Source: Solidesulfovibrio fructosivorans JJ]
Lineage (GTDB): Bacteria > Desulfobacterota > Desulfovibrionia > Desulfovibrionales > Desulfovibrionaceae
Assembly: GCF_000179555.1 (NCBI RefSeq)
Contig: NZ_AECZ01000011.1
Span: 1-64,000 of the forward strand
Direction of reading: 5' to 3'
DNA length: 64,000 bases
Positions within the stretch are counted from its first letter, which is position 1. Each line of letters opens with the position of its first letter. The position numbers and the translations under genes were made by a program. Positions 9,502 to 51,808 of this stretch are shown here, piece after piece. The notes beneath the pieces were generated by a model. The model had not been told where the DNA came from. It searched no databases and was given only the letters and a program-made list of their open reading frames with translations.

Positions 9502-9544
9502 GCGAGAGGGGAGAACCCTTTTGCAAAGGGTTCTCCCCTCTCGC
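9502..9544. repeat. Family A palindrome with perfect 20-bp arms
   Basis: The arms at 9502-9521 and 9525-9544 are perfect reverse complements around a TGC loop (ends GCGAGAGGGG and CCCCTCTCGC). A conserved pyrimidine tail (CTCTCCCTTTCCTAAAC then TTTTT) follows. The element sits between the converging HerA-like gene and lutC, so it can terminate both. Confidence 0.9.
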
Positions 9545-9620: not shown

Positions 9621-10279
9621 CTACAACCACTCCAAACCGATGACATGGACGGCCAGCGGGCCGTGGACGCCGCGCACGTAGACGAATTCGATATCCCCGG
9701 TGCTGGAGACGCCGGAGACGCAGTTGACGGCGCTCGGCATGGGGCCTTTGGCCAGTCCCTCGAACACGGCCGGCAGATCGGGCACGAGCTTTGAGGCCGG
9801 AAGCAGCGCCACGTGCAGGCGCGGCACCAGCGGCGTGGCCCGCTCCCGCTCCTTGCCGGCGGCGAGGATCAGGCTCCCTGTGGCGCACACGGCGTAGGCG
9901 ACGCTGGTAAGGCCCATATCCACGGCGGCAAGCGACGGGCAGACGCGTTCCGGCAGGTCTTCGGGGGCCAGCACGGCCACGTCGGCCGAGGCCAGGGTGG
10001 CGGCCGCATCCACGGCGTCAAGGTCGGGATGGTCCCAGCGCACGGCGGTTTTGACCCCGTTTTTGGCGATCACGGCGGCCAGGGCGGCCTTGGCCGCATC
10101 CGGCGTCTTGGCCAGCTCGAAGGTCGGGCCAAGGGCGGTCAAGGCGGCGGCGAAGGTTTCGAAATCGACCGAATCCAGGCACTGGCGGCGCAAGGAAAGG
10201 GGACGCCGGGCGCGCGGCAATCCCTTGGGCTGGCCGGCGCGAAGCCGGGAGAGGATGGCGGTTCTCACTTGGGCTTCGT

Positions 10280-10283
<4 letters not shown>
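9621..10283 (-). CDS. lutC: Lactate utilization protein C
   Basis: This 220-residue LUD-domain protein is the third subunit of the LutABC L-lactate oxidation system. The C-terminal part shows the family run TGSLILA, LHVALLPASKLVPDL, CVSGVSSTGDIEFVYVRGVHGP. The first about 60 residues are more variable. The start at 10283 overlaps the lutB stop by 4 bp (ATGA), so it is translationally coupled. LutABC oxidises L-lactate to pyruvate in the cytosol, and lactate is a main electron donor for this type of organism. The gene ends 77 bp from a family A palindrome. Confidence 0.92.
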
Positions 10284-11700
<1,417 letters not shown>

Positions 11701-11704
<4 letters not shown>

Positions 11705-12423
11705 AACTCCCCTCCCGCCAACACCTCGGCCAGATGCAGCGCCTTGACCGAGGCTTCACGCTTGGCCAGGGCGGAACTGATATTGAGCAGGCAACTCGGC
11801 TCGGCCGTGATGACCGCCTCGGCTCCGGTAGCGATGATGTCGTCGATCTTCTTGGCCAGGATGGCCTGGCTCACTTCCGGGTAATCCACACTGAACGCCC
11901 CGCCGAAGCCGCAGCAGCGCTCGGGATGGGCAAGCGGCAAAAGCGTAAGCCCTTCCACGGCGGCAAGGAGCTTTTCGGTGCAGTCGCCGGCGCCGAGCGC
12001 CCGGGTGGTCTGGCAGGAAGCGTGCAGGGTCGCCCGCGCGGCGTAACGAGCGCCGAGGTCGGGGCTGCCGAGCTTGCCCACCAGATATTCGCCGAGTTCA
12101 AAGGTCTTGGCCGCCACGCGAGCCGCGCGATCGCGCCAGGGATCGTCCGCTTCGAAAAGCGACGGATACTTGCGCACCATGGCCGTGCAGGAAGCCGAAG
12201 GGCTGACGATGGCCGGGGCCTCCTCGAAAATTTCCACGAACCGCCTGGCCAGGGGCCGGGTCAAATCCGGACGGCCCCGCTTATAGGCGAACTGGCCGCA
12301 GCAGGTCTGCCCGGAAGGAAGCTCGGGGGTCACCCCGGCCCGGGAAAGGACCATGGCCGTGGCCTCACCCACCCGGGGCAGCACATGCTCGACCAGGCAG
12401 GGAATGAAGAGAAAGGCTTTCAC
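11701..12423 (-). CDS. lutA: Lactate utilization Fe-S oxidoreductase A (two CCG domains)
   Basis: This is a 240-residue LutA/GlpC-family protein. It starts VKAFLFIPCLVEHVLP and has two cysteine-rich CCG repeats: TCCGQFAYKRGR in the first half and RCCGFGGAFSVDYPEVS in the second, plus CQTTRAL and SCLLN elements. These bind a noncubane Fe-S cluster in the family. A GTG start at 12423 is chosen because GGAGG lies six bases upstream; the ATG at 12510 would add 29 unrelated residues. It is the first gene of the lut operon, divergent from the citrate-synthase-like gene. Confidence 0.93.
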
Positions 12424-12493
12424 AAAATTCCTCCTTGGGGGCCGCCAAATTACGCCGCTTGCGTTGCGGGTCAAGAGCGACAGGGAGGCGTGC

Positions 12494-12522
12494 TTTACAC
12501 CGGCCGGCACGGCGGCTATGAT
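12494..12522 (+). promoter_or_regulatory. Sigma-70 type promoter for the citrate-synthase-like gene
   Basis: TTTACA (12494-12499), a 17-base spacer and TATGAT (12517-12522) form a near-consensus housekeeping promoter. The expected transcript start is about 20 bases before the ATG at 12549, with AAAAGGA as the ribosome-binding site. Confidence 0.65.
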
Positions 12523-12548
12523 TTATAAATTTCACAAAAGGACGTTCG

Positions 12549-13838
12549 ATGACCGCACCCGACTCCGCCACCCTGACGTACGAAGGCAAAAGCGTCTCCC
12601 TGCCCGTTATCAATGGCGAACACGTGGAAAAAGCGCTGGACGTGCGCAAGCTGCGCGCCCAGACGGGCTGGATCACCCTTGACCCCGGCTACGCCAATAC
12701 GGCCGTGTGCAAAAGCGCCATCACCCATATCGACGGAGAAAAGGGCGTGGTGCTCTTTCGCGGCTACGATCTGGAGGAGTTGACCCAAAAGTCCACGTTC
12801 GTGGAAACGGCCATGCTGGTCATGTTCGGCGAGCTGCCGACCAGCGCGGAACGCGAGGCCTTTCGCGTCATGCTGCGCGACCAGGAGCTGTTGCACGAGG
12901 ACCTGCTCAGCCACCTGGACGGCTTTCCGCCAAACGGCCACCCCATGGCCATCCTCTCGGCCATGATCAATGCCATGGGCAGCTATTACCCCGAGCTTTA
13001 CGACATCAGCTCCCAGGACGACTTTCGCCTGGCCGCGGCCAAGATCATGAGCAAGGTGCGCACCATCGCCGCCTTCAGCTTCCGCAAGTCCCAGGGGATG
13101 CCGCTCAACTACCCCAATCCGAAACTGGATTACTGCCGCAATTTCCTGCACATGATGTTCTCCGTGCCGTTTTGGATCTACGAGGCTCCGGACCCCATCG
13201 TGCGGGCCTTAAGCATCTTCATGATGTGCCACGCCGACCAGGCCCTCGACACCTCCTGCGCCACGGTGCGCATGGTGGGCTCGAGCCAGGCGAACCTCTT
13301 CGCCTCGGTCTCCGCCGGCATCTGCGCCCTGTGGGGACGCCACCACGGCGGGGCCAGCTCGGCCGCCATCCGCATGTTCGAGGACGTGGTGGCCGGGCGC
13401 ACGACGGTGACCCGCATTCTCGAAGCGGCCAAGGCCCGCTCCGGCCGGCTCATGGGCTTCGGCCAGCGGGTCTTCCACGTCGAGGACCCCCGGGCCCGCA
13501 TCATCAAGGCGACCTACGAAAAGCTCATCGCCACCGGTTACGCCAAGTGCGACGCCTTCCACGACATCGCCCAGGAAATCGAGGAACGGGCCGGCGAGGA
13601 CGAATACTTCGCCTCCCGCCATTTGCTCCCCAACACCAATTTCTATTCAAGCCTGCTGCTTCGGGCCATCAACTTCCCGCCCAACATGTACCCGGTCATC
13701 ACGGCCATAGGGAACATGCCGGGCTGGATCGCCCACTGGAAGGAAGAAACCCACTCGCCCGACCAACGCATCCAACGGCCGCGCCAGATTTACATCGGCC
13801 GCAAACGCCACTCCTACACGACCATGGAGAAACGTTAG
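12549..13838 (+). CDS. Citrate synthase family protein with altered active site
   Basis: This 429-residue protein aligns from end to end with hexameric type II citrate synthases such as E. coli GltA, including the N-terminal small domain. His228 (HAD), His266 (WGRHHGGAS), the DPRAR arginine and RPRQIYIG are kept. Three other active-site positions differ by my alignment: Gln231 for E. coli His229, Gln306 for His305 (GFGQRV instead of GFGHRV) and Asn364 for the catalytic Asp362 (PNTNFYS instead of PNVDFYS). Normal Si-citrate synthesis is therefore doubtful. A changed acyl-CoA or oxo-acid substrate, a regulatory role or a weak enzyme are alternatives. It has its own promoter and is followed by a family A palindrome. 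Confidence 0.9.
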   Translation: MTAPDSATLTYEGKSVSLPVINGEHVEKALDVRKLRAQTGWITLDPGYANTAVCKSAITHIDGEKGVVLFRGYDLEELTQKSTFVETAMLVMFGELPTSAEREAFRVMLRDQELLHEDLLSHLDGFPPNGHPMAILSAMINAMGSYYPELYDISSQDDFRLAAAKIMSKVRTIAAFSFRKSQGMPLNYPNPKLDYCRNFLHMMFSVPFWIYEAPDPIVRALSIFMMCHADQALDTSCATVRMVGSSQANLFASVSAGICALWGRHHGGASSAAIRMFEDVVAGRTTVTRILEAAKARSGRLMGFGQRVFHVEDPRARIIKATYEKLIATGYAKCDAFHDIAQEIEERAGEDEYFASRHLLPNTNFYSSLLLRAINFPPNMYPVITAIGNMPGWIAHWKEETHSPDQRIQRPRQIYIGRKRHSYTTMEKR

Positions 13839-13853
13839 GGCGATCAGAGCGGC

Positions 13854-13894
13854 GCGAGAGGGGAAATCCTTTTTAAAAGGATTTCCCCTCTCGC
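13854..13894. repeat. Family A palindrome after the citrate-synthase-like gene
   Basis: A perfect 41-base palindrome with 20-base arms (GCGAGAGGGGAAATCC... and its complement), followed by the pyrimidine tail. It begins 15 bases after the stop codon, so it is a likely terminator. Confidence 0.9.
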
Positions 13895-14044
13895 GCCCTC
13901 CTGTTCCGAAAATTTTACAGACGGCCGCGCGCACCGGCCACACTCCGTCGCCGGCCAGCCCAACAGAAACAGTACTTCCGTCAACGCCTCCAACAAGCAC
14001 CGCATTCAAAAACAAGCCCGCATCATTTCCCATAGGATCCTTCC

Positions 14045-24837: not shown

Positions 24838-26466
<1,629 letters not shown>

Positions 26467-30105: not shown

Positions 30106-30146
30106 GCGAGAGGGGGAGACCCCTTTATAAAGTTTTCCCCTCTCGC
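30106..30146. repeat. Family A palindrome, degenerate, at the CobW breakpoint
   Basis: GCGAGAGGGG...TTTCCCCTCTCGC arms with mismatches in the inner part (GAGACCCCTTT against AAAGTTTTC). It sits about 60 bases upstream of the point where CobW homology suddenly starts. Confidence 0.8.
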
Positions 30147-40130: not shown

Positions 40131-40171
40131 GCGAGAGGGGAGAACCCTTTTCAAAGGGTTTCCCCTCTCGC
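40131..40171. repeat. Family A palindrome, inverted orientation
   Basis: GCGAGAGGGGAGAACCCTTT and its near-exact complement around a TC loop (40131-40171). The conserved tail lies on the left (GTCAAAAGGTTTAGGAAAGG), so this copy is inverted relative to the other seven. It sits between glpQ and the converging caspase gene. Confidence 0.9.
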
Positions 40172-43177: not shown

Positions 43178-43219
43178 GCGAGAGGGGAAACCCTTTTGCA
43201 AAGGGTTCTCCCCTCTCGC
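43178..43219. repeat. Family A palindrome upstream of the caspase gene
   Basis: GCGAGAGGGGAAACCCTTTTGCAAAGGGTTCTCCCCTCTCGC with one mismatch in 19-bp arms, followed by CTCTCCCCTTCCTAAATC. It lies between the D-lactate dehydrogenase and caspase genes, both minus strand. Confidence 0.9.
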
Positions 43220-51767: not shown

Positions 51768-51808
51768 GCGAGAGGGGAAACCCTTTAAAGAGGGTTCTCC
51801 CCTCTCGC
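51768..51808. repeat. Family A palindrome after the PxxKW gene
   Basis: GCGAGAGGGGAAACCCTTT...AGGGTTCTCCCCTCTCGC with near-perfect arms, then CTCTCCCCTTCCTAAATC and a T-run (TTTTTT) at about 51828. Confidence 0.9.

Follow-up and report, generated by a model that had tools for sequence, protein, structure and literature searches.

We identified a citrate-synthase paralog in Solidesulfovibrio that, judged by its sequence, is an old duplicate lacking citrate-synthase chemistry, and we see about an even chance that it has been kept as a ligand-binding regulatory pseudoenzyme. The gene occupies positions 12549–13838 (+ strand) of the window, by which we mean the whole 64,000-nucleotide stretch of DNA analyzed here. 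Its open reading frame is intact, as had been predicted, and encodes a protein of 429 amino acids that matches PF00285 and, when aligned to GltA, carries the substitutions H229Q, H305Q, D362N, and R387N (E. coli numbers). We favor the pseudoenzyme reading because the protein is under constraint and has an ordinary companion enzyme: at the level of individual residues, an old and conserved paralog has given up catalytic positions while existing alongside an active enzyme.

Citrate synthase binds oxaloacetate through three arginines, R314, R387, and R407. H305 and R387 contact the oxo acid, so that their replacement removes those contacts, and replacing D362 takes away the base responsible for forming the acetyl-CoA enolate. 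We used E. coli GltA from NC_000913 as the reference and numbered residues without the initiator methionine. In this numbering the catalytic triad is 264/305/362, which corresponds to His265/His306/Asp363 of P. aeruginosa GltA (PMC9765439). Window Q231, Q306, and N364 align to H229, H305, and D362, and window H228 and H266, the equivalents of H226 and H264, are retained; the alignment thus agrees with the original prediction on the Gln/Gln/Asn set and on the two remaining histidines. The substrate arginines had also been described as kept. Two of them are, R314 (window R315) and R407 (window R410), whereas position 387 holds Asn (window N389) in all paralogs whose sequence reaches it in the alignment. 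Only His264 of the triad and two of the three oxaloacetate arginines are therefore left. H305Q, D362N, and R387N, along with Q231L and N232D, are each fixed to one residue in 16 of 16 full-length paralogs from two genera, and two paralog pieces at contig ends in a further genome (G006) show the first three of these substitutions wherever they are covered. For those three, such uniformity goes beyond what chance would give. Neighboring fixed columns, for example 230–232, 268, and 383, are altered as well, and H226, H264, R314, and R407 are invariant among the 13 paralogs aligned.

With hexameric Si-citrate synthase of the GltA type the paralog shares the full length of PF00285 (350.4 bits against a cut-off of 27, profile positions 1–357 of 357) and the four residues R314, R407, H226, and H264. 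It differs in the replacement of H305, D362, and R387 (and, in Solidesulfovibrio, of H229) and in falling below both NCBIfam citrate-synthase equivalog cut-offs (460.9 of 505 for NF004126 and 397 of 485.15 for TIGR01798). The cut-offs for 2-methylcitrate synthase (TIGR01800, 235.6 of 421.3) and for the citryl-CoA lyase subfamily PRK06224 (best score 81.6 of 212) are also missed. An AlphaFold model of the paralog, built from an eight-row alignment, was poor (mean pLDDT 49.6). The ordinary citrate synthase of the same genome (G000:C50:17390-18661, 428 amino acids) has intact active-site residues and passes both equivalog cut-offs (568.6 and 502 bits). The window protein is ~55% identical to this copy and ~37% identical to E. 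coli GltA. A second citrate-synthase gene is found in addition to the paralog gene in all 14 genomes of the genus and in all three of a sister genus (g41), and it is ordinary, with catalytic residues intact, in all 16 genomes where its full sequence could be read; both genes of G006 are broken by contig ends, and its second-gene piece matches residues 1–259 only.

The presence of an ordinary Si-citrate synthase elsewhere in the genome runs counter to the earlier suggestion that a Re-citrate synthase had freed the paralog from the normal reaction. We also rejected this explanation on the distribution of the candidate enzyme, a 613-amino-acid HMGL protein without a strong relative in the paralog-bearing genomes of the family sample (nine of the genus and three of g41), so that the search proposed for a Re-citrate synthase gene yielded no strong match there. 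Across the 149 family genomes, the HMGL query has a strong match in 81 (at least 400 bits, the next score being 87); 77 genomes have only the HMGL protein, 53 only the Si-type enzyme, four both, and 15 neither. This is near mutual exclusion (Fisher P 1.3e-21, for genomes that are not independent), and the four double carriers have an HMGL match that is weaker (46–51% identity) and shorter. The paralog-bearing genomes fall in the Si group. The exclusion pattern, rather than any curated match, suggests short of proof that the 613-amino-acid protein (e.g. L151:1345-3186) is a Re-citrate synthase; its C-terminal part resembles chemoreceptor sensor domains, and the whole may be a fusion of a Re-citrate synthase with a ligand sensor. 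Three HMGL-like genes exceed the Pfam cut-off in the source genome: a citramalate synthase (domain at window positions 24853–25587), which passes a curated cut-off; LeuA, which passes two; and a 399-amino-acid isopropylmalate/homocitrate-synthase-like protein (G000:C1:234042-234827; L064:1453-2652), which falls short of all 25 NCBIfam cut-offs shown. Four family members without a Si-type citrate synthase each carry an extra HMGL gene scoring 99–110 bits, which has no counterpart among the HMGL matches of the source genome and G098; one of these four served as the query for the family sample.

The altered copy is present in all Solidesulfovibrio genomes searched (14/14) and in the related genus g41 (3/3: G053, G080, and G098), and it is full-length without stops in 13 of the former, the 14th lying at contig ends, and in all three of the latter. 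The paralogs of close named relatives are, for example, 94% (S. alcoholivorans DSM 5433) and 83% (S. aerotolerans DSM 16695) identical to the window protein. A Si-type match was found in 57 genomes of the family sample, and two copies occur outside Solidesulfovibrio only in the three g41 genomes. We could therefore discard a lone sequencing variant, the substitutions being common to all 14 Solidesulfovibrio genomes (in G006 where covered) and, for H305Q, D362N, and R387N, to all three g41 genomes. With regard to conservation within the Desulfovibrionaceae, which the original prediction had proposed to check, the Gln/Gln/Asn set is fixed in Solidesulfovibrio, and g41 has His/Gln/Asn; because the g41 paralogs keep H229, H229Q probably arose after the other changes.

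Further afield, we ran a profile of 13 paralogs against 297 genomes of the order and 345 of the phylum, and full-length paralogs (852–937 bits) were separated from the next best score (671 bits). Among the 51 newly retrieved, best-scoring loci, seven were paralogs and 44 were of the ordinary type; H229, H305, D362, and R387 are kept in 44 of these 44, at least seven of which were already in the family sample. This reading of residues covers the best-scoring loci, many phylum genomes hold further, weaker-matching citrate-synthase copies, and dead copies of other citrate-synthase types may exist elsewhere in the phylum. The motif L[MIV]GFGQR occurs at 25 sites in 22 of 395 phylum genomes, and the four sites in a citrate-synthase frame belong to the source genome and the three g41 genomes; the same change was thus not seen elsewhere among these motif sites, the motif being blind to other sequence contexts. 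A literature search, with subscription papers mostly outside its scope, found no paper on the paralog.

The paralog appears to be an old duplicate of hexameric Si-citrate synthase that predates the split of the two Desulfovibrionaceae genera. A tree of 65 proteins places the 16 paralogs together in a single clade (support 100/100) with a stem branch of 0.46; within it the Solidesulfovibrio members sit on another stem, of 0.48, and the stem of the genus's ordinary copies is 0.27. The tree omits contig-end fragments (L009, L024, L038, and L039), repeat fetches, and the ordinary g41 copies, and because of the last omission the paralog and ordinary stems span different times. Direct comparison between the genera gives 79–80% identity to the source genome's ordinary copy for the ordinary g41 copies and 62–64% identity to the window protein for the g41 paralogs, indicating that the paralog has changed faster between genera. 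Within the genus, where 76 of 78 genome pairs were usable for dN/dS (NG86), its median was 0.130 for the paralogs versus 0.146 for the ordinary enzyme, and the median dN was 0.077 for both. Because dN is larger in the paralog than in the enzyme in 45 of 78 pairs, we regard constraint as similar, not stronger. Purifying selection on the paralogs is about as strong as on the ordinary enzyme, which bears out the earlier claim that the gene is under selection.

To these rates can be added the columns in which paralogs and enzymes differ, for which we compared 42 ordinary enzymes (13 from the genus, three from g41, 18 from the family, and eight from the order, outgroups left out). Of 149 columns invariant across these enzymes, the 16 paralogs all keep the enzymes' residue at 109. 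Another 20 columns are switched, that is, fixed (≥95%) to a residue in ordinary enzymes that never occurs in the paralogs; these include 230–233, 236, 268, 305, 311, 362, 383, and 387. Twelve of the 20 lie within six residues of eight active-site residues (P 0.006 versus 200 conserved columns), a partly circular test, since the list includes positions noticed beforehand. At the NADH-site positions, the comparison of paralog with enzyme gave no clear signal.

The gene has its own putative expression signals. We read a sigma-70-like promoter, TTTACA-N17-TATGAT, at 12494–12522 (+ strand) and a ribosome-binding site, AAAAGGA, at 12536–12542 (+ strand). The promoter had been called good, and this stands for TTTACA (12494–12499), which all 13 aligned upstream sequences of the genus contain, but not for the second hexamer, which varies (e.g. 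TATCAT, TAAAAG, TAGAAA); AAGGA is likewise found in all 13. Beyond the 3′ end, a long hairpin at 13851–13897 (no strand assigned; fold of 13838–13905, –47.9 kcal/mol, z –7.65) is probably a bidirectional terminator that sets the paralog apart from the mscS-like gene that follows, so that co-transcription of the two is unlikely. Similar long inverted repeats (GCGAGAGGGGAAA...) occur in the window at 9502–9544, 13854–13894, 30106–30146, 40131–40171, 43178–43219, and 51768–51808, with single arms of the same family at 9 and 31779. Arms of this family match 14 times with at most three mismatches, where 1.4 matches are expected, and the repeats probably serve as strong bidirectional terminators that recur across the window.

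We compared the neighborhood in 12 genus and three g41 genomes (G003 and G006 left out). The divergent neighbors at 9621–12426 (– strand) are lutABC-like lactate-oxidation genes by profile match, and we count them as neighbors by position; the LutB-like protein scores 410.2 against the TIGR00273 cut-off of 444.8 and matches part of LdhH too. lutABC adjoins the paralog in 11 of the 12 genus genomes (a contig end cuts one) and in one of the three g41 genomes, being absent beside it in S. aerotolerans and the other two of g41. Downstream, every locus compared (12 in the genus, three in g41) has the mscS-like gene and a bactofilin gene, with ugd close by in most. lutA, lutB, lutC, mscS, bactofilin, and ugd are all absent from the stretches of 6 to 19 kb inspected around nine ordinary citrate synthases. 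The neighborhood shows shared descent of the locus, with no clear functional partner among the neighbors.

How might such a protein act? The paralog retains the conserved core and, in R314 and R407, half of the oxaloacetate pocket, and the other half (H305, R387, and, in Solidesulfovibrio, H229) and the catalytic base D362 have become neutral amides. The R314/R407 pair could hold one carboxylate with the opposite end of the pocket neutral, and the paralog would then have changed its ligand, probably to a monocarboxylate or an acyl-CoA. The ligand signal might be relayed by co-assembly with the ordinary enzyme into mixed oligomers, or through another target. In citrate-synthase structures R407 reaches into the active site of the neighboring subunit, and mixed oligomers are attractive because this residue, which serves the partner's site, is invariant. 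A specific form of the idea, a two-subunit citrate synthase in which the paralog lends R407 in mixed hexamers, reads a new ligand, and sets citrate entry, we consider doubtful. A consideration against the pseudoenzyme reading as a whole is that a new enzyme or a homo-oligomer would also account for the conservation of R407 and H264.

Known systems offer partial parallels. The regulatory subunits of NAD-isocitrate dehydrogenase are catalytically disarmed paralogs in mixed oligomers with an active subunit, although that is a different enzyme and mixed oligomers are hypothetical for the citrate-synthase paralog. According to one report, Caulobacter crescentus CitA controls the cell cycle without catalysis, and catalytically inactive CitA still does so (PMC7083601). 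Its H303A and H303W variants, which have lost the ability to complement an E. coli gltA deletion (PMC7083601), are altered at the equivalent of H305. The likeness to our paralog thus lies in a role independent of catalysis and in the site of the engineered lesion; the difference is that CitA is a working enzyme that moonlights, whereas our paralog is a separate gene whose lesion is natural and fixed. The same report describes CitC as an additional Caulobacter citrate-synthase homologue, 32% identical to CitA, that likewise does not complement E. coli gltA (PMC7083601), a likeness of description rather than of compared active-site residues.

The main rival to the pseudoenzyme reading is an enzyme with a new substrate, in which the less charged pocket takes another acid or acyl-CoA and H264 and the amides carry out another reaction, for instance thioester hydrolysis or condensation with a donor that is acidic from the start. 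A number of the switched columns hold a single residue rather than drifting, constraint is enzyme-like, and H226, H264, R314, and R407 do not vary in 13 paralogs, all as this explanation would have it. We nonetheless think it somewhat unlikely: D362 is the acetyl-CoA base in known enzymes and Asn is not expected to replace it, and no recognized pathway genes directly adjoin the paralog, with the hairpin preceding the next gene. A moonlighting or structural protein (an oligomer or filament) for which the pocket is irrelevant would account for a lost active site within a retained core. It has in its favor the Caulobacter CitA precedent (PMC7083601) and the constant presence of the mscS-like channel and bactofilin genes downstream. 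We regard this as unlikely, because invariance of the remaining or replacing pocket residues suggests that the pocket still matters and the neighbors look like plain synteny of related genera.

That the protein is still a citrate synthase, with reduced or altered kinetics, is very improbable. Its 55% identity to the ordinary copy and its recognizable signature segments point that way, against which stand the loss of two triad residues and an oxaloacetate arginine, the failure to reach two equivalog cut-offs that the ordinary copy passes, and the abolition of gltA complementation by a change at the H305 equivalent of CitA (PMC7083601). The earlier proposal of a role other than the normal reaction is in line with this, and on the residues present, loss of that reaction is probable. 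A decaying, functionless duplicate would fit the long stems of the clade and of its genus part and can be dismissed, given that 13 of the 14 genus genomes (contig ends interrupt the gene in the other) and all three of g41 have full-length, stop-free copies, that dN/dS is 0.13, and that 13 of 13 sequences retain TTTACA and the ribosome-binding site.

Citrate synthase is a textbook enzyme with one precedent, Caulobacter CitA, for regulation without catalysis, and a natural, fixed, and constrained paralog without the catalytic residues would offer a clean system for such a role. The gene also carries an annotation warning: it would be labeled citrate synthase, probably wrongly, and for modeling carbon flow in these sulfate reducers the ordinary gene, not the paralog, is the one to use. 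If the two-subunit reading were true, the paralog would set the entry of carbon into citrate in these organisms.
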